DNA from: a virus
Virus record (IMG/VR): IMGVR_UViG_3300020027_000014
Coordinates: 1-47,260 of that record
DNA length: 47,260 nucleotides
Reading direction: 5' to 3' (one strand)
Both the position numbers and the translations under genes were made by a program. Every line of letters begins with the position of its first letter. Position 1 is the first letter of the stretch. Below are positions 29,599 through 45,961 of the stretch, piece after piece. Below the pieces are notes generated by a model. The model was not told where the DNA came from. It saw nothing but the letters and a program-made list of their open reading frames with translations, and ran no database searches.

Positions 29599-29910
29599 TT
29601 ATTTAGTTAAGTAAGATTCACCTAGTTTTTTGATAGCTCCCGTATCCTTTGATTTAGCTGCTTCAACAATTTCCCCAAATACATCTGGTTTGAAACATGC
29701 TAAACATCCAACCTCACTAATTCTTTCTAGATTACCTCCTACCTTCTTGTGAAAGTTAGGGTCTGTTGTTGATGCTTGGAATAATGCAATTTGAGACATT
29801 ATAACCAATGCACGCCAAGGATCACTTTCTTTATATCCTGCTTGATGCACCAATAATGATTGATGCTTCTGGCACATATCAAGAACTTCGATTCTAGGAT
29901 TATCTGTCAT
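29599..29910 (-). CDS. Hypothetical protein
   Basis: 103 residues, helical. A PRIEVLDMCQKHQSLLVH start, a middle with LVIMSQIALFQ, then GCLACFKPDVFGEIVEAAKS, whose CxxC is single. It overlaps the HNH gene (ATGA). No function visible. Confidence 0.65.
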   Translation of the reverse strand: MTDNPRIEVLDMCQKHQSLLVHQAGYKESDPWRALVIMSQIALFQASTTDPNFHKKVGGNLERISEVGCLACFKPDVFGEIVEAAKSKDTGAIKKLGESYLTK

Positions 29911-30203
29911 TGTTTTTTCCGTGAGTGAATACGTCTATGTTTTAGTTTAGTTAATTCTTCTAAGTGGAAAGGATTCACACATGCTCTTATCTTGCATTTG
30001 TGATGAACTTCTTTTGAGTAGTAATCCCTTCCAGTAAAAAGAAACCAAACGAACCTACTTGCTATCCAGTTTTTATTATATCTATTGATTATTGGATATC
30101 CCTCGTCCCAATATGCAGGACCAGAGTATATCCAACAATCATCAAAGTTAATTACATCATTTGCAAAATGAATAACTTTATTTAATACAGTTACCTGTAT
30201 TAT
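29907..30203 (-). CDS. HNH homing-type endonuclease, normal start codon missing
   Basis: About 98 codons from the end of the tRNA gene to the stop. The product carries the HNH motif of intron/homing-type nucleases: a DDCWIYSGP start, GYPIINRY, WIASRFVWFLFTGRD and HHKCKIRACVNPFHLEEL, where the HH, Cys pair, N and final H form the metal site. Between the tRNA and the conserved region the frame has no ATG, GTG or TTG; only ATA, ATT and similar codons. The only ATG in frame lies in the tRNA acceptor stem (30284). It may use a rare start, be translated from the tRNA ATG, or be broken at its 5' end. Neighbouring tRNA-Leu is a plausible landing place. Confidence 0.7.
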   Translation of the reverse strand: MIQVTVLNKVIHFANDVINFDDCWIYSGPAYWDEGYPIINRYNKNWIASRFVWFLFTGRDYYSKEVHHKCKIRACVNPFHLEELTKLKHRRIHSRKKQ

Positions 30204-30290
30204 GGTGCGGGGAGGGGGAATCGAACCCCCACGTCTTATTAGGACTTCGGATTTTAAGTCCGATGCGTCTGCCAATTCCGCCATCCCCGC
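30203..30290 (-). tRNA. tRNA-Leu (anticodon UAA)
   Basis: 88 bases including an encoded CCA at 30203-30205. Acceptor arms GCGGGGA and TCCCCGC pair fully, with A as discriminator. The anticodon stem GGACT/AGTCC-type arm encloses TTAAAAT with TAA as the anticodon; a long variable arm and a TTCGATTC T loop are present, all typical of tRNA-Leu. UUA codons are very common in this A/T-rich genome, so the gene would help translation. It lies between the HNH gene and the Acb2-like gene. Confidence 0.96.
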
Positions 30291-32518: not shown

Positions 32519-32696
32519 CGTGATCCTTTAGAAATCTTTCTCTCATCTCGTCATCTTTAATAGTCTTGTTTATTACATGACTCATTAAGAGAAATCGAGC
32601 TACTAATTCCACCATAGTATCAGCTTCAATCTGCTCAATAATATGGCTCTTAGTTTCCTCATTTCTATAGGCTAGAGTTAGGGCTAGTCTTTTCAT
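32499..32696 (-). CDS. Hypothetical protein
   Basis: 65 residues: LTLAYRNEETKSHIIEQIEA followed by helical VELVARFLLMSHVI and an acidic DDDIPF end, which resembles the C-terminal tail of single-strand DNA-binding proteins (acidic tip ending in Pro-Phe). Here it may bind a replication partner. It lies between the polymerase and zinc-ribbon genes. Confidence 0.6.
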   Translation of the reverse strand: MKRLALTLAYRNEETKSHIIEQIEADTMVELVARFLLMSHVINKTIKDDEMRERFLKDHDDDIPF

Positions 32697-35305
32697 CGTT
32701 TATCCATTTGATGTTGATAGATTAAGTCTGTTAGTCTGCTATCTTTAGGTAAATCAACTACAGTGAATTGTTCTTGAATACTCTTAGCTGGCATTACAGG
32801 TTCTATTGCTGGCAATGCAATGATGGGGATATCCTTAAATTTCTTGAGATCACAGTAATTAACCCCGGTTTCAATATCACAAGGAATGGACAAAGCCCTT
32901 CTGGGAATTGAACATCTTGAGAAATCAATAGGTCTTTCAAACTCTTGTTTGATAATTGGAACCCACTCGGGAAGTCTCCACTTAGGTATACAGAAAAGTA
33001 ATGCATCGTGAGCCTCCATTACTATCTTAATACCAGGGCATCGTTGCCTAATGCGAAGTCCTGCCGCTTTGGTATTATCCGTAACAGTGCGCTGTGGTAA
33101 ATAACTAAATGCCTGTCTATTTAGTTCCTCACTCCAACGCTCAAAAAATGTCCTACGTCCACCAAACTCCACATCCAAACCATATGGAATAGGTGCTATT
33201 AACGTCCTATTTTTCTTGAGACATTCAATAACACTATTCTGGAATACAGATTGAATTTTTGGCTGTTTACTATGGAAAATCTTTAATGCTCTCTCAGCTA
33301 TTTGTTCCGAGATATGGATTGGAATCTTATATTTCCTAGCTTGTGTATTAACTTCAATTGACGCTCTGCGTTTACCTGCACCAAGGTGTCCTGCGTGTCT
33401 AAGAGTTTTACCTGCAAAGCGAATTGGATGTTCATATCCCAATATCTTCTTAGAGTAATCTTTCTCAGTTCCCCCAAAGAACCAAGTAGCAGTCGCAGCA
33501 TGATAATCAATTTCATCCACCAGTTTTAAGGCTTCTTCATCATCAGCTAATAGCCATACAACTCTAGCCTCAGCTTGACTACTATCAGCCTGAACAAATA
33601 CTTCTTCTAATAGCTCCTGTGGTATATCATTAATGGGAGTAGGATCATCAGGCACATACATTTCACGAATATCAGCACCAATGTCACCATGCTTAGTCAT
33701 CGTCTGAAATGCAACGCCTAATACTTTCTTTTTCTTTTTTCCATTCTCGTCATATACTTCTATTTCAGGTCTAATAGGAGGATCTTGCTGACCCGTCGAA
33801 CTACGACCTGTATCAAGACATGGAAAGTATGTAGTCCTCATTCTGCCATCAAAATCTGGCATTGCCATGAGGTATGTAGAAATAGATTTTCTTACTCGTC
33901 TATCTTCAAGAATAAGTTCAAGGCATTCCCTGACATTGTCATTTTTAATAGCTGTCGGAGAGTTAAGTAATTCGGTAATTGCTTCCTCTCCTGTGGATGC
34001 CTTTCTAGGTAAGCCGAAATTATCCCACAATAGAATCGAAATCTGTTTGGGGGAATTGACATTAATTTCTGTTCCGGTAAGTTGAAATAACCTGTATCTG
34101 AGACGCTCATCCCACTCAACATATTTATAAAGCAATCTATCTCTTGCAATAGAGTCAACTTTGAAACCCTGCCTCTCTATATCCCAATACATATTAGGTA
34201 ACTGCATGAGATAGTTATGATAAAATGATTCTTGATGTATTTCTTTTAAGTCCGCATCCATTGCCTCGTCAATTTCTTTCGTGACGCAAGCATCCCTAGC
34301 GCAACCTTTGAGTAAATCTTCGATTGAACCTTCATACATTCCTTCGTCTTTGTAGAATGGTTCTTCCGTATAGATTGATGTATTAAAGCCCAATCCCTTC
34401 GGAAGTTCTGGATTAATCGCGAAGGCTTTATACATGGTGTCGGATATGAGCCGCTTGATAATAAATCCGAGACGTAGTATTTTATCTCTATCGTAGTTAA
34501 AGTTCTGTCCGATAATATCGGTGGTGGCAAGAATATCAGCAAGGATTATCCAACATTGAATTAGATCACTATCCGGTATAGTAGATATACCATCTGTGTT
34601 CCACAATGGAACAGTCATGCCATGACCTTTGGTGTAGGCCAATCCTATACAGATAGGAAGTCCATTGCCACCAGATTCAATATCGACTGATACTGATTTG
34701 AAATCTTTATACCGATTCCTAAATTCGGATAAGTGATGTGAGTTCCTACAGATTTCTAAAGTCCTATGTGGTAGTATTAGTTCTGGGAATTTGGATTGCG
34801 TTAACGCTCTCTTAAAATCAAAGAGCATAATCTGTCTATTCCAATATCCTTTTATTTCACTAGCACTACCACTGGAATTGAATGATAGATCCCTAGGATT
34901 ATATGTTGGGACAAACTTAACTCCCATACCATGTAATATAGAGCCTCTATTCTGACTGATCTTTCTATCTTTACCTGCTAATGCCCATAGCGCAGGTCCA
35001 CCAAGCGCAAGTATGCAATTAGGCTTGATAGAATTAACTTCATTCTGCAAGTCATCTAATTGCTCTACAAGATCAATACCCTGTCTATTAGCTCTGATAG
35101 AGAATGGTATTTTATCCTTATCAGAATCAGGCCATACAGGATATTTAGATACAGTAGACAGCCAGCAGTCACCTCTATATATACCGGAGTCTTTAAGTAA
35201 TCTATCTAACTCACGATGATAGGTTTTCAAGTCATAGGGAGAGTCACCAAGTATCATTAACTTGGCACCTATTGGACCTGATGCTGGATGATATTCTTTA
35301 CTCAT
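32693..35305 (-). CDS. polA-like: UDG-like domain fused to family A DNA polymerase with proofreading domain
   Basis: 870 residues, three parts. Residues 1-165 look like a uracil-DNA glycosylase fold (GAKLMILGDSPYD, PNCILALGGPALWALAG, FVPTYNPRDLSF). Residues about 200-345 form a 3'-5' exonuclease with D208/E210 (VSVDIES), N268-D272 (GQNFNYDRD) and D338 (CARDACVT). Residues about 480-800 are PolA: motif A DSSQAEARVV (D574), fingers RFAGKTLRHAGHLGAGK with R629 and K633, motif C EAHDALLF (D767). Equivalents of Escherichia coli PolI F762 and Y766 read His637 and Leu641, and the residue after the motif C Asp is Ala in place of Glu. SPO1-type phage polymerases also carry a UDG fusion. It is the replicative polymerase. 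Confidence 0.9.
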   Translation of the reverse strand: MSKEYHPASGPIGAKLMILGDSPYDLKTYHRELDRLLKDSGIYRGDCWLSTVSKYPVWPDSDKDKIPFSIRANRQGIDLVEQLDDLQNEVNSIKPNCILALGGPALWALAGKDRKISQNRGSILHGMGVKFVPTYNPRDLSFNSSGSASEIKGYWNRQIMLFDFKRALTQSKFPELILPHRTLEICRNSHHLSEFRNRYKDFKSVSVDIESGGNGLPICIGLAYTKGHGMTVPLWNTDGISTIPDSDLIQCWIILADILATTDIIGQNFNYDRDKILRLGFIIKRLISDTMYKAFAINPELPKGLGFNTSIYTEEPFYKDEGMYEGSIEDLLKGCARDACVTKEIDEAMDADLKEIHQESFYHNYLMQLPNMYWDIERQGFKVDSIARDRLLYKYVEWDERLRYRLFQLTGTEINVNSPKQISILLWDNFGLPRKASTGEEAITELLNSPTAIKNDNVRECLELILEDRRVRKSISTYLMAMPDFDGRMRTTYFPCLDTGRSSTGQQDPPIRPEIEVYDENGKKKKKVLGVAFQTMTKHGDIGADIREMYVPDDPTPINDIPQELLEEVFVQADSSQAEARVVWLLADDEEALKLVDEIDYHAATATWFFGGTEKDYSKKILGYEHPIRFAGKTLRHAGHLGAGKRRASIEVNTQARKYKIPIHISEQIAERALKIFHSKQPKIQSVFQNSVIECLKKNRTLIAPIPYGLDVEFGGRRTFFERWSEELNRQAFSYLPQRTVTDNTKAAGLRIRQRCPGIKIVMEAHDALLFCIPKWRLPEWVPIIKQEFERPIDFSRCSIPRRALSIPCDIETGVNYCDLKKFKDIPIIALPAIEPVMPAKSIQEQFTVVDLPKDSRLTDLIYQHQMDKR

Positions 35306-36335: not shown

Positions 36336-36602
36336 CTATTCCTCTACTTTAATCTTAATAGCTCTATAACCTTTATCTTCCACTTCAAATGCCACAAACG
36401 ATACTTTCATTCCAGAACGTAGCTCTTGGAATTTGAGAGTATCTAGTTTAAGCGAAGTCCAGTGGAAAAAGACTCTTGTGAATGGAATATCCTTAGTGCT
36501 GATAAATCCATATCCATCAGACGAAATCTTAATGATCCGTCCTTGAATTCTCTTTTCGTCTTTTACTTCTTTTACTGTATCAGTTGTATTAGTCTCAGAC
36601 AT
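36336..36602 (-). CDS. Cold-shock-domain protein with structured leader
   Basis: 88 residues. After a charged N-terminal extension, RIQGRIIKISSDGYGFISTK carries the first CSD strands and RNP1-like GYGFIST; VFFHWTSL is RNP2-like. A VSFVAFEVEDKGYRAIKI end closes the barrel. It is a second, divergent CSD protein of this phage. The long leader at 36603-36784 holds a strong hairpin just before its ribosome site. Confidence 0.82.
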   Translation of the reverse strand: MSETNTTDTVKEVKDEKRIQGRIIKISSDGYGFISTKDIPFTRVFFHWTSLKLDTLKFQELRSGMKVSFVAFEVEDKGYRAIKIKVEE

Positions 36603-37566: not shown

Positions 37567-38427
37567 CTATACAGTGAATCCTCCGGTATTAGCAGGAGTA
37601 TTAGTAGGAGCAGATCCAATCCTAACTGTTGGTGCAGTTTTCATCTGCAAATCAATAGCAGGTTGAATCCACTTTTCAAATAGAGGTTCATTATCAAAAG
37701 TAATCTTACGAGCCAATGGCAATGACGTTCGTGCATAGTCATTGCCAGTGTGTGAAGTATACAATCCATAATGACCTTCCGCATCAGCATTGAAATCACT
37801 CTCAATGTTGAAGTGATATGCCTCCGTGCAATACGAGGCAATCTTTGCACTAATCTGTGCTGCACCTGTTACGATGATACGAGAATGATGTGTTTTGCTA
37901 TTACCCTCATCATCCTTACGCTGACCAATAACATGAGCAATCAGAATAATGTGAACTTTGTGGAACTTGTGAATGTCCTTTAACTTGCTGATAAGATCCT
38001 TAAAGGCACCTGACTCAGCGTTAAATTCCTCTAAACCTGATACGGATATGCCTCCGATAGTTTTACCTTTACCACTACCATCGTCACCCTTACCAGATTT
38101 CTTCATCTTACGAACCTGATTAGTCATACAATCACCAATAGATGTAATGCTATCCACGATGATTGTTTTGAATGGACAGTTAACTTGTAACTGTTCCAAT
38201 TTAGCATCAGGTTGCTGCCAATCAGTGTAATCATCATAATGAATATCCTTCATATTGATGCCCCACCTTTTAGCAGGTAACTGTAATGCTTCCATCTTTT
38301 GATCGGTCGATATCCAATATTGTGGTGTAGGATATGATAAGGCACACGTTGATTTGCGAGTCCCCGGCTCACCCTTGAACATAGTGAATAGACCGTCGTT
38401 AAGATTGACTGTTTCCAGTGTCGCCAC
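37567..38427 (-). CDS. Sak4-like RecA-family recombinase ATPase
   Basis: 286 residues, GTG start at 38427 with GAGGT upstream. Walker A is GEPGTRKST (about 19-27) after LFTMFK; Walker B is KTIIVDSITSIGD. A HKVHIILIAHVIG segment is the usual next strand. This is the Sak4 family, single-strand annealing or RecA-like ATPases of lytic phages. SSB-like and Cas4-like nuclease genes are in the same arm, forming a probable recombination set. Confidence 0.88.
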   Translation of the reverse strand: MATLETVNLNDGLFTMFKGEPGTRKSTCALSYPTPQYWISTDQKMEALQLPAKRWGINMKDIHYDDYTDWQQPDAKLEQLQVNCPFKTIIVDSITSIGDCMTNQVRKMKKSGKGDDGSGKGKTIGGISVSGLEEFNAESGAFKDLISKLKDIHKFHKVHIILIAHVIGQRKDDEGNSKTHHSRIIVTGAAQISAKIASYCTEAYHFNIESDFNADAEGHYGLYTSHTGNDYARTSLPLARKITFDNEPLFEKWIQPAIDLQMKTAPTVRIGSAPTNTPANTGGFTV

Positions 38428-39217: not shown

Positions 39218-39381
39218 CGTTCTAATCTCTCGTATTTTCCACTTTCTTTACACTCACTTTTAGGATGTGGATGATTAGGTTCCCAAACCATTTCACATAC
39301 TAAACATTTATGATGAGGTCTAATTCCTTTATCCCTATCACCATAAACTCTTATAATATTATCTGATCTATTCATCTTCAT
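39214..39381 (-). CDS. Small zinc-finger protein
   Basis: 55 residues from the ATG at 39381 (an ATG at 39375 is equally possible). PHHKCLVCEMVWEPNHPHPK with CxxC, then HPH and KSEC gives a CxxC-x-H/C zinc-binding pattern. It overlaps the end of the Cas4-like gene. Unknown function. Confidence 0.6.
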   Translation of the reverse strand: MKMNRSDNIIRVYGDRDKGIRPHHKCLVCEMVWEPNHPHPKSECKESGKYERLER

Positions 39382-40378
39382 TGGTAGGATTCCATTCTGG
39401 TCCAACAATAAAGTTGAGTTTTAATTCTTCCTCACGCATACCGGGATCAGACTCACACACTCCCTTAAATGGGCAAGGACCATACTTACCTTCACAGTTA
39501 CTATAATTAGGTGGAAAATGCTCCATCTCATTATACATTAACAACATCCTTGCATAGAATGGCAGAGTTTCACTAGCCCATTCCATTAATCTTGGTGCTG
39601 AGTATGAAATGATGTTTCTTTGGAACTTTTCTTCTGGCTTGAGAGTAGTTTGAAATCCAATCTTATTGATAACCATATTACGTGTATTCATAATATGGCA
39701 TTGACCAATAAACTGGTTATTCAATCCACTAGTGGGACGATTCTGTTTCATCGTCTTATGATCTATTGGAAGGATAGACTGATTAGTGTCGGCTGTTAAG
39801 TCTAATTTAGCCTTCCACATAATGCGAAGATCATCATCTTCATACAGAACTTTACCTTTAACGATCTCTACTTCTAATGGAACCCAATGATCGTTCTTGT
39901 AAAATTCTGCATATTGTTCACAGGTAGTTAATGCCCACTTCCAACCTGTTTTATGACCATCATTATCTGGTGCTGTCTGTCTTACACCGGGATAATCATT
40001 AGGTCTATGTCCACATGTTGGTTTAGGTAATTCTGGTGTAGCAATGAAATCAGTGCAATCAGGACAACCACGAATATACAATTCAGCGGCTGTCATTCCG
40101 AATGCGAGGGACTTAGTTTTATCTAATCCCTTTACTAGAGATTTATAGTAAGTTTCCATGAATGTATGGACAATTGATCCACATTCTAATGAATTAGACT
40201 TACCTTTATTCGATTGGAGACTCATATTAAATCTAAAGTCTGCCATTCGAGGACAGGTCATTAATGCAGTCAATACCTGACTGTCCATAATGACATTCTT
40301 TTTACCACCTGCTACAACCTCTACTAAATCTTGAGGCTGAACGTCGATGATATCACCTGGCATTGTATTATCAGTCAT
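39368..40378 (-). CDS. Cas4/AddB-like PD-(D/E)XK nuclease with iron-sulfur type cysteines
   Basis: 336 residues. Pattern: QVLTALMTCPRMADF with C42 as first cluster cysteine, ECGSIVHTFMET with its His, a core with KAKLDLTADTNQ (Asp) and ILPIDHKTMK (Asp-x-Lys), and a final CEGKYGPCPFKGVCES with three cysteines. This combination is typical of Cas4- or AddB-type exonucleases with a 4Fe-4S cluster. It also has an extra CPDC/CGH insertion (about 105-128). It likely processes DNA ends for Sak4 recombination. Confidence 0.85.
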   Translation of the reverse strand: MTDNTMPGDIIDVQPQDLVEVVAGGKKNVIMDSQVLTALMTCPRMADFRFNMSLQSNKGKSNSLECGSIVHTFMETYYKSLVKGLDKTKSLAFGMTAAELYIRGCPDCTDFIATPELPKPTCGHRPNDYPGVRQTAPDNDGHKTGWKWALTTCEQYAEFYKNDHWVPLEVEIVKGKVLYEDDDLRIMWKAKLDLTADTNQSILPIDHKTMKQNRPTSGLNNQFIGQCHIMNTRNMVINKIGFQTTLKPEEKFQRNIISYSAPRLMEWASETLPFYARMLLMYNEMEHFPPNYSNCEGKYGPCPFKGVCESDPGMREEELKLNFIVGPEWNPTNEDE

Positions 40379-41877: not shown

Positions 41878-44001
41878 CTAAAATAGTGACTGTGAAACTG
41901 GTTTATTCATTGACAGAGACTTACCTTTAATCGTAAGATTATCTTTACCCTTATTCTTTTCTTTGTGTTTACGAACAATTGTTTCTGCGAGTTCTTTTGC
42001 GAAGTCTCCCTCATTCCATACAGGAGCCTCACCTTTATTCATTACATCATGGAAGGCTTTACGCTTAGTTTCCACAATTGCGCCAATATGCTGGTCAATT
42101 GTATCGTCAGCCTCAGTGAATGTAATATTAACAGACTTAGCTTTTTGACCAATTCTACGAAATCTTCCCGGCGCAGCTTGATCTTCATTCTGTGGATTCC
42201 ACTGTCTTTCATGTAATACACAGTCTGCACAAGTCTGTAGATTTAATCCCTCTCCTGATGCCAAAGTGGAAGCGATCATAAAAGCGCGTGGAGCCTTATT
42301 GAAATTCTCAGACATTTCAAAACGTAATGCGTCACCATCTGGACCTGCAATAGCTTTAAGATGAAATAATGGAATTCCTGCTTCTTTACACATAGGCAGG
42401 ATTTCATTATAGAGTAGATCACTTACATCTTTATGATGGACAAAGATTACCAGTTTTCTATCCGTATCTTCGATGAATTCTTCGACGAATCCAACCGTAG
42501 CAGGAATTTTAGCAAGACCAGTAATATGACGCATCCGAGACATCTTACCAAGCAACTCAATACCTGATAGCTTTTCTTCCATGCCATCAATAAGTGCTTG
42601 GTTATACCACTTAACGAATTCACTAACTTCATCATCATATGTAGATTGTGATAGTTCGTCAAGTTGCACATTTAGTTTCATTCTATTAATTTCGGGGAAT
42701 TCATCCATTACTTCTTCATATTCTCTACGAATTAGAATGTCTTGGACATATTCCCTAAACTTAGTAGGATTCTTAATGCCACCCTGTTTACGTGTATTAC
42801 CATGCATGTAGAAGTCCACCCATCTATCAAGATATGCTTGATGTGAGTGAAACTTAGTCGGAGAGATCATATTAAGAACAGGGAAGAATTCTCCACCACG
42901 ATTCTTCCACGGTGTGCCACTGAGAGGTAATACTTTTATTTCTACTGACGCTCCCACTATTTTTCTGACTTCTTGTGTTCTTGTTGAATCAGGATTTTTA
43001 ATCTGCTGACATTCATCAAGAACTACTAGTTTAATTCCAAGTGCTGCAATCTTTTCTCTTGGAAATCTTCGGAGTAAATCATATGAGATGATATATGATT
43101 TAAGACCGGGAAATACGAAGTCTTTCGATGTAGAGATAATCTGTGGCATGTGCGAGGGAGAGAGCCACTTGATAATCTCTTTGAAGAACTGGAATTTAAG
43201 TGCTGATTTCACAATGAATAATGTAGGACTATACTCAGAGTGAAATTTAATGATAGCTAAGGCTTGGACAGTTTTACCCAATCCCATATCATCAAAGATA
43301 CCGAATCCTTTTTGTATAGATAATCCAGATTCGGCAGCTTTACAGCCATCTACTTGAAATGTATATAGCTTAGTTTCGCCACAACGTTTACATACTGTCT
43401 TATCCCAATCATGTAAACATGAGGCTACTTCTGGTTTCCACCAATTACTTACTAGCTTGTGAAATTCAGTTCCTTTAGGAATGATCTTCTTGATAATATG
43501 GAAACATTCCAGTGTAATAAGACGGACAATGTTTCCTTCCTTATCAATAGATTCGATATTGAATCTTTCAATAGCTACCTTGCCACATTCAGGACATTTA
43601 TCCTGCAAGCGAGTAACTTTGTATTTAGGTATCTTGATTGTGTCAAAAGTCATTTCGACATTCTGACCACTCCTGATAGCATCAAGAACATGCTCAGGGA
43701 CATTAAACTCTGCACACATTGTAGTTCTTGCGCCTAATTCTTCTGCCTTTGCAGCCCACTCTAAACCATGATGATGATCGTTAGGAGTAAGTGCGTGGGC
43801 TACTTCATGTTTAATAGTGTCAATAACTTCATCGTCAGGATGGATATCAATAGCCAATGCATTTAAAATGATTGACTGTGTTTTCCAGTCACAACGACCT
43901 AGAAATGGAGTATTATCTAAGTTTAGGATAACTTTCCATCCACTTAGATTATACTTATCTAGATATTCACGACACGTTTTTGATGCTATTTGTCTATCCA
44001 T
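41878..44001 (-). CDS. SprT-like metalloprotease fused to SNF2-family helicase
   Basis: 707 residues. Residues 1-100 are a SprT-type zincin: HEVAH at 65-69 and a third His near 77-78 followed by Trp82. Residues about 130-210 have CPEC and CKRC pairs (C136, C139, C204, C207), a zinc ribbon. From 230 a SNF2 ATPase begins: Walker A DDMGLGKT (237-244), DECQ at 329-332, and the C-terminal lobe ends with QAAPGRFRRIGQ (motif VI, arginine fingers). It would remodel or strip proteins from DNA, and the protease might cut DNA-bound proteins. Such a fusion in one phage protein is unusual. It overlaps the upstream gene by 8 bases. Confidence 0.9.
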   Translation of the reverse strand: MDRQIASKTCREYLDKYNLSGWKVILNLDNTPFLGRCDWKTQSIILNALAIDIHPDDEVIDTIKHEVAHALTPNDHHHGLEWAAKAEELGARTTMCAEFNVPEHVLDAIRSGQNVEMTFDTIKIPKYKVTRLQDKCPECGKVAIERFNIESIDKEGNIVRLITLECFHIIKKIIPKGTEFHKLVSNWWKPEVASCLHDWDKTVCKRCGETKLYTFQVDGCKAAESGLSIQKGFGIFDDMGLGKTVQALAIIKFHSEYSPTLFIVKSALKFQFFKEIIKWLSPSHMPQIISTSKDFVFPGLKSYIISYDLLRRFPREKIAALGIKLVVLDECQQIKNPDSTRTQEVRKIVGASVEIKVLPLSGTPWKNRGGEFFPVLNMISPTKFHSHQAYLDRWVDFYMHGNTRKQGGIKNPTKFREYVQDILIRREYEEVMDEFPEINRMKLNVQLDELSQSTYDDEVSEFVKWYNQALIDGMEEKLSGIELLGKMSRMRHITGLAKIPATVGFVEEFIEDTDRKLVIFVHHKDVSDLLYNEILPMCKEAGIPLFHLKAIAGPDGDALRFEMSENFNKAPRAFMIASTLASGEGLNLQTCADCVLHERQWNPQNEDQAAPGRFRRIGQKAKSVNITFTEADDTIDQHIGAIVETKRKAFHDVMNKGEAPVWNEGDFAKELAETIVRKHKEKNKGKDNLTIKGKSLSMNKPVSQSLF

Positions 44002-45211: not shown

Positions 45212-45961
45212 TTAAACCTGCTCCGGATTAGCAACGATAGGAATTTCAGCCTTAGCAGCTTCGATAGATTTTTTCAGCAGATTATATCCTTCCTCTGCTG
45301 ATAGATTCTTTTGCACGCAGATCATCTGCAATGTGAATTCTGGCATCATTAGCAGAGCCGCATACTTACGAACTTCTGCCTTATCCAGCTTTTTCTTAGC
45401 AACCTTAATATTACTAGTCGCTGTAGATATCTTACGACCTGATACTGGAGAAACCTGATAGTTTATATCATTAATCTTGAGTTTCTCACGTTCATCAGCA
45501 CGAAGCTGATTAGCAAGATTATTGAGATAAACTTGGATAGCTTTTTGTTTATTGGATTCTTCCATGATCTTTTCATTAAGTTCAAAGATCACAGTCTTAT
45601 ACTTGCCATATCTCTCCTGTAATGCTACAGCTAGAGCATATGGTTTATTGGTAATTGTTTCATCTTCGTCAATAGCCTTTTTCATATCAACGATAGATAC
45701 AGTTTCCGCATTGAATAAATCAGTGCGAATCTGTATACGCGCATCAACGTCACGCGATTTAGTTAATACTTCGTTGATATTGATAGGTCCATCATTGGCA
45801 GGAGTAGTCACAGATTTAACCCTAACTCCTTTTAGGAGACAATCATTGCAGATTGTGTCGTTACCAATGATTTTGAGATTAGAGAACGTCTTAGTGACGC
45901 CATTCTCAATAACCTCTCTTTTAATCTCTTTAGTGTCGCAGTAATCGCATTCATTAGCCAT
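45212..45961 (-). CDS. Hypothetical protein with zinc finger, long helical body
   Basis: 249 residues. CDYCDTKEIKREVIENGVTK at the start with ICNDC about 30 residues later forms a four-cysteine zinc site. The rest is helical and charged. It carries VALQERYGKYKTVIFELNEK and LNNLANQLRADEREKLKIND. The ribosome site is GGGGAG. Possibly a DNA-binding early protein; no family recognised. Confidence 0.7.
   Translation of the reverse strand: MANECDYCDTKEIKREVIENGVTKTFSNLKIIGNDTICNDCLLKGVRVKSVTTPANDGPININEVLTKSRDVDARIQIRTDLFNAETVSIVDMKKAIDEDETITNKPYALAVALQERYGKYKTVIFELNEKIMEESNKQKAIQVYLNNLANQLRADEREKLKINDINYQVSPVSGRKISTATSNIKVAKKKLDKAEVRKYAALLMMPEFTLQMICVQKNLSAEEGYNLLKKSIEAAKAEIPIVANPEQV

Follow-up and report, generated by a model that had tools for sequence, protein, structure and literature searches.

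What would a phage gain from a SprT-like protease joined to a SNF2 motor in one polypeptide? The question is raised by a gene in IMG/VR record IMGVR_UViG_3300020027_000014, whose full stretch of 47,260 bases was analyzed here (the window). An earlier note, made from the sequence, took the gene to be of phage origin; since the record also encodes a terminase large subunit (PHROGs) and a major head protein, we assign it to a tailed phage. The same note placed the gene at 41878-44001, coordinates that we confirmed, and gave no strand, which is minus: a single ATG-started frame of 707 amino acids runs from 44001 to 41878, and the plus strand of this span contains many stops. Its claim that this frame holds both a HEVAH zincin and a complete SNF2 ATPase was likewise supported by the frame check and by Pfam.

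Architecture and conservation of the fused protein

The gene and its parts are as follows.

41878..44001, minus strand: whole gene, 707 aa (SprT-like zincin, two zinc segments, and SNF2 ATPase)
43666..44001, minus strand: SprT-like metallopeptidase domain, residues 1-112 (Pfam PF10263, AlphaFold2, Foldseek)
43795..43809, minus strand: HEVAH, residues 65-69, two predicted zinc ligands and general base; H65, E66, and H69 invariant in 96/96 relatives
43768..43770, minus strand: H78, probable third zinc ligand by analogy with the SprT family; invariant in 96/96
43615..43665, minus strand: linker between protease and zinc segments, residues 113-129; mean pairwise identity, 0.53; SprT-less relatives start at its end
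43462..43614, minus strand: predicted zinc-binding segment 1, residues 130-180; C136, C139, C166, and H168 invariant in 96/96; kept in SprT-less relatives
43366..43461, minus strand: predicted zinc-binding segment 2, residues 181-212; C195, H197, C204, and C207 conserved in 95/96
42022..43365, minus strand: SNF2 ATPase, both lobes, residues 213-660 (Pfam PF00176 and PF00271, phrog_62, Foldseek, PDB 1z63)
43270..43287, minus strand: Walker A MGLGKT, residues 239-244; K243 invariant in 96/96
43006..43017, minus strand: Walker B DECQ, residues 329-332; D329, E330, and Q332 invariant in 96/96
42145..42180, minus strand: motif VI QAAPGRFRRIGQ, residues 608-619; Q608, R613, and R616 invariant in 96/96

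Residues 1-110 had been read as SprT-like in the earlier note, and both profile searches (Pfam, PHROGs) and fold comparison (Foldseek) agreed. The Pfam SprT-like model (PF10263; cut-off, 25.6 bits) spanned residues 11-92 at 39.2 bits in the full protein and scored 42.5 bits (E=6.7e-11) against residues 1-134 alone; in PHROGs the N terminus corresponds to phrog_1006. The AlphaFold2 model of residues 1-214, built from an alignment with 60 relatives, reached a mean pLDDT of 89.3, with values mostly >90 across residues 1-112. When this model was compared with the PDB by Foldseek, the minigluzincins selecase and jannalysin (4qhi, 4jix) and human SPRTN (6mdx) were returned with a probability of 1.00 and E values of ∼5e-4 to 6e-4, and Schizosaccharomyces pombe Wss1 ranked lower in the same search (E=0.3). 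Among viral models, the matches were annotated SprT proteins of Gordonia, Mycobacterium, Yersinia, Cronobacter, and Serratia phages. The predicted structure is thus that of a SprT/minigluzincin fold. A direct PDB sequence search with residues 1-134 gave no match, and a profile of residues 1-214 reached SPRTN at just E=0.037.

Catalytic residues of the SprT-like family, HExxH followed by a third histidine, are intact. The earlier note had expected the histidine ligands to be conserved in orthologs, and H65, E66, H69, and H78 were indeed the same in every one of the 96 fused relatives, which disfavors a degenerate domain. H78 is the probable third zinc ligand of the predicted site, because it is invariant and the adjacent H76 and H77 vary. 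Two further cysteines of this domain are nearly invariant: C37 (43891-43893) was kept in 90/96 relatives and C96 (43714-43716) in 95/96, the latter within a loop that the full-length prediction models with low confidence. A cysteine switch has been described for Wss1 (PMC4559962); that C37 or C96 could act as one is a guess.

The C-terminal motor matched two Pfam models above their curated cut-offs, SNF2-rel_dom (PF00176) at residues 235-462 (92.4 bits) and Helicase_C (PF00271) at residues 508-618 (25.0 bits; cut-off, 23.5), and the Walker A, DExx, and motif VI residues of the SNF2 ATPase family are present. It corresponds to the DNA helicase family phrog_62 in PHROGs, and its best PDB sequence match was the Sulfolobus SNF2 protein 1z63 (E=1.1e-22). 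The full-length AlphaFold2 model (mean pLDDT, 83.3) retrieved the SNF2 remodelers CHD4, ISW1, and Ino80 by Foldseek, as well as the Zorya protein ZorD. PADLOC matches to defense components (ZorD, DpdE, DrmD) were confined to the SNF2 part and were set aside as reflecting a common motor family. In one fused relative (L043, 5968-9138), an intein-like insert occupies residues ∼252-585, inside the Walker A motif; it matches LAGLIDADG homing endonuclease (Pfam E=1.6e-8) and, weakly, Hint.

Between the two domains, the earlier note had seen zinc ribbons. Two conserved clusters that may bind zinc are present, but neither matched a Pfam ribbon above cut-off, and no SPRTN-type zinc ribbon was detected by Pfam in the window protein. 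SPRTN-type crosslink proteases have a zinc-binding subdomain that is part of their SprT domain and binds single-stranded DNA. In the window protein, the CCCH cluster after the SprT domain matches no SprT zinc ribbon in Pfam and is retained with the motor in relatives that lack the protease. Assignment of the zinc segments, like that of the third ligand, is a prediction from conservation and family analogy.

Relatives were collected in three IMG/VR scans (the second confirmed 206 and the third 232, with 80 kept from each) and were mostly ∼47 to 63% identical to the window protein. In a non-redundant census of those retrieved, a single frame encoded SprT, zinc segments, and the SNF2 motor in at least 96 distinct relatives. 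SprT was missing from the frame in nine uncut genes, and another 16 genes, truncated 5' where the contig stops, had no visible SprT domain, for that reason or another. All of these relatives come from metagenomic assemblies, in which contig ends and frameshifts may mislead. One of the nine (L050, 5992-8078) has SprT and motor in two overlapping frames and is either truly split or the product of an assembly frameshift. For 16 close pairs, dN/dS was 0.035 to 0.17 in the SprT part and 0.045 to 0.087 in the motor. Mean pairwise identity between relatives was 0.61 for SprT, 0.56 to 0.60 for the motor, and 0.53 for the linker. The SprT domain is under strong purifying selection, as is the motor. These low dN/dS values, together with 96 one-frame relatives at such divergence, rule out chance or a frame artifact. 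The fusion is a feature of a large family of uncultured phages rather than an accident of one genome. A scan of genome contigs for a host or prophage yielded only distant SNF2 proteins (23 to 25% identity) in Acidobacteriota and Treponema metagenome-assembled genomes.

Probable loss of the protease at a fixed locus

At least eight relatives (L027, L032, L039, L040, L045, L062, L131, and L179) consist of zinc segments and motor, start near residue 129, and lack SprT. No separate SprT gene was found elsewhere on the contigs of seven of these (three contigs being 44.6, 46.6, and 47.7 kb long), and no decayed SprT remnant was found upstream of the SprT-less genes, which speaks against a moved or decayed SprT at these loci. 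In the motor tree, whose root rests on long outgroup branches, the seven SprT-less members then known required at least five state changes, and a single clade of these seven was rejected (AU test, P=2.9e-9). Because the SprT-less relatives do not form one clade and are nested among fused ones, the domain has probably been lost several times; repeated gain is the formally admissible alternative. Two relatives without SprT (L179 and L180) are 73% identical across the motor to a fused relative (L147) and probably represent a further event. That SprT-less relatives exist indicates that the protease is an accessory, neither the core function of the protein nor essential to the role of the motor. 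We conclude that it is probably a selected yet dispensable accessory to a DNA translocase.

The surroundings of the gene are the same with and without the protease. In all 16 loci compared, SprT-bearing and SprT-less, the order was F1, motor gene, PD-(D/E)XK nuclease; a Sak4-like gene and then F5 came next in the 14 loci with enough flank. The corresponding window genes, with two others mentioned below, are as follows.

45212..45961, minus strand: F1, conserved upstream neighbor, 249 aa; upstream of the motor gene in 16/16 loci
39368..40378, minus strand: F3, downstream neighbor, PD-(D/E)XK (Cas4/RecB-like) exonuclease (PF12705, E=1.5e-5; phrog_1218, exonuclease); 16/16 loci
37567..38427, minus strand: F4, Sak4-like single-stranded DNA annealing/AAA_24 ATPase (phrog_124, E=1.2e-15; Pfam AAA_24); present in the 14 of 16 loci with enough flank
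36336-36602: cold-shock-domain protein
32693..35305, minus strand: family A DNA polymerase (PolA), same replication block (PF00476, E=1.4e-17)

Neither F1, which has cysteine pairs near its N terminus, nor F5 had a usable family match in PHROGs, Pfam, or NCBIfam. The nuclease and Sak4-like neighbors, joined in the window by the cold-shock protein and PolA, point to replication or recombination. A viral metagenome study has also reported PolA genes adjoining SNF2 proteins without an assigned function (PMC9069017). The window PolA carries an N-terminal uracil-DNA-glycosylase-like domain (residues 9-151; PF03167, E=1.2e-7) with a weak UdgX match. Elsewhere in the window, a tRNA-Leu (TAA) called by ARAGORN at 30203-30290 (minus strand) overlaps the start of an open reading frame with an HNH-endonuclease match (29907-30284), so the start of that frame or one of the two calls may be wrong.

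Comparison with known proteases and motors

SPRTN/Spartan, the eukaryotic DNA-protein crosslink protease, acts in the context of DNA and resembles the window protein, by sequence and predicted fold, in having a SprT-type zincin with HExxH and a downstream histidine (Foldseek 6mdx, E=6e-4). However, SPRTN has no fused motor and is recruited through PCNA, p97, and ubiquitin motifs, with separate unfolding enzymes (PMC12279946), whereas the window protein has a SNF2 ATPase in the same chain. The best relatives of the N-terminal domain are stand-alone phage SprT proteins (phrog_1006; 35 to 42% identity) from Gordonia phages Emalyn and Amok and Mycobacterium phage Myrna. Stand-alone SprT-like matches abound in phages (978 records); unlike the fusion, these relatives are short separate proteins without an ATPase; in Emalyn, SprT shares a genome region with PolA, Cas4-family exonuclease, and RecA-like genes. 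Conversely, the phage SNF2 "DNA helicases" of Rhodothermus phage RM378 and Thermus phage phiLo (phrog_62) resemble the motor half at ∼25 to 28% identity and have no SprT domain.

Zincins joined to SNF2-type ATPases are already known in other forms. Polyvalent proteins likewise combine a zincin-like MPTase with a SWI2/SNF2 ATPase in one phage-encoded chain, but they are large, with many other domains, and their MPTase clades are not specifically related to other zincins and have glutamate as third ligand (PMC5512222). The window protein instead has a SprT-family zincin with an invariant H78 in the third-ligand position, is limited in its 707 amino acids to protease, zinc segments, and motor, and lies in a replication block; we therefore do not count it among the polyvalent proteins. 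In a search of 297 Acidobacteriota genomes for a cellular SprT fusion, two long frames were inspected, one HsdR-like with YgjP and one BlaR1-type M56, and neither was the fusion described here. The former (L176, 2647-5124, minus strand) resembles the window protein in that it encodes a zincin and a SWI2/SNF2-type ATPase in one 825-amino-acid frame (HsdR-like SWI2/SNF2 ATPase, type I R domain, and C-terminal YgjP metallopeptidase); it differs in its type I restriction motor, its YgjP family, its reversed domain order, and its origin in a cellular genome. A 1,440-residue BFVD model from Podoviridae sp. ctQyH19 (A0A8S5UR37_3) has a 71-column stretch like SprT (30% identity; Foldseek E=0.053) and is possibly another large SprT-containing protein.

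The earlier note had proposed a search for the same fusion in other phages. The fusion recurred in IMG/VR, but among 50,697 GenBank phages no place covered 80% of the protein by tblastn, a search that a diverged SprT half could escape. Nor did any place among 72,556 plasmids, and we found no description of a SprT-SNF2 fusion in open-license PMC papers. As far as we found, SprT fused to SNF2 is new; given the stand-alone phage SprT proteins and the other zincin-SNF2 fusions, we regard it only as a novel variant.

Possible roles of the fusion

Since the catalytic residues of both domains are conserved, both halves probably work. That the protein has protease activity, that this is coupled to the motor, and that the substrate is a protein bound to phage DNA, we infer. 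In animal reconstitutions, a protein crosslinked to DNA is unfolded by translocating FANCJ, which enables cleavage by SPRTN (PMC12279946); the active site of SPRTN becomes exposed when the protease binds DNA (PMC7782752). The window protein may be a one-chain counterpart of this pair, a motor that dislodges or unfolds proteins bound to DNA and also cleaves them, a proposal that we consider evenly balanced between right and wrong. The SNF2 motor, helped by the two zinc segments, would track along phage double-stranded DNA while the genome is replicated or recombined; where a protein is tightly bound or crosslinked, the motor would displace or unfold it; the N-terminal Spartan-like protease, held near the motor by the linker, would cut the exposed chain; and polymerase, nuclease, and annealing protein could then pass. 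Fusion would provide motor-protease coupling without recruitment. In favor of this reading are the SprT family and fold, the complete active site and SNF2 motifs, the low dN/dS of the SprT part, and the fixed neighborhood; against it, we count the relatives that manage without SprT and the lack of a Pfam match to a SPRTN-type zinc ribbon. Clearing proteins from phage DNA, for which the earlier note named host proteins, crosslinks, and defense complexes as possible targets, fits the domain anatomy and the replication/recombination neighborhood, although the neighborhood would be identical were the protease serving another purpose. More tentative, and somewhat doubtful as a whole, is the fuller proposal that a widespread phage family uses a single-chain ATP-driven protease, with unfolding translocase and SPRTN-type protease in one polypeptide, against DNA roadblocks and DNA-protein crosslinks in genome replication or recombination.

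Another purpose could be attack on the host or its defenses. The motor would scan DNA, and SprT would destroy host nucleoid proteins, RNA polymerase, or restriction and other defense complexes, with a target that varies by host. Patchy presence at one locus suits such a conditional, host-dependent function, and the stand-alone SprT copies of jumbo phages have been suggested, given their limited distribution, to cleave host proteins (PMC7824862). Repeated loss, which marks the protease as accessory, suits this proposal and a conditionally needed repair role alike. However, the gene sits in a replication/recombination block rather than among visibly variable early genes, and a SprT domain as conserved as the motor, with low dN/dS, is unlike a fast-changing arms-race effector. 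We consider a host- or defense-directed role unlikely on these grounds.

Self-processing, in which the zincin would cut the linker (residues ∼113-129) to free the zinc-segment/SNF2 motor or to inactivate the protease, seems less probable still. Because SprT-less relatives start near residue 129, the motor can evidently work as a protein of its own; moreover, polyvalent-protein MPTases have been suggested to cleave the chains that carry them (PMC5512222), and both Wss1 and SPRTN cleave themselves in trans when DNA is present (PMC7782752). Yet the linker is not especially conserved and has no recognizable cleavage site, and a motor-only gene would suffice if release were the sole purpose, whereas 96 relatives keep an intact protease. 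Finally, we give very little credence to a catalytically idle SprT domain that merely binds DNA or docks the motor: its dispensability in some relatives and the report of SNF2-type genes beside viral PolA with no mention of a protease (PMC9069017) would suit this, but an idle domain is expected to lose some of its general base and three likely zinc ligands, all of which are invariant.

The fusion offers a self-contained system for testing motor-coupled proteolysis on DNA; in the animal reconstitution, this step requires both FANCJ and SPRTN and is enhanced by ubiquitin. Natural SprT-less relatives can serve as controls. The fusion would also point to a role for phage SprT domains, which are common but annotated just as "protease" or "unknown function."
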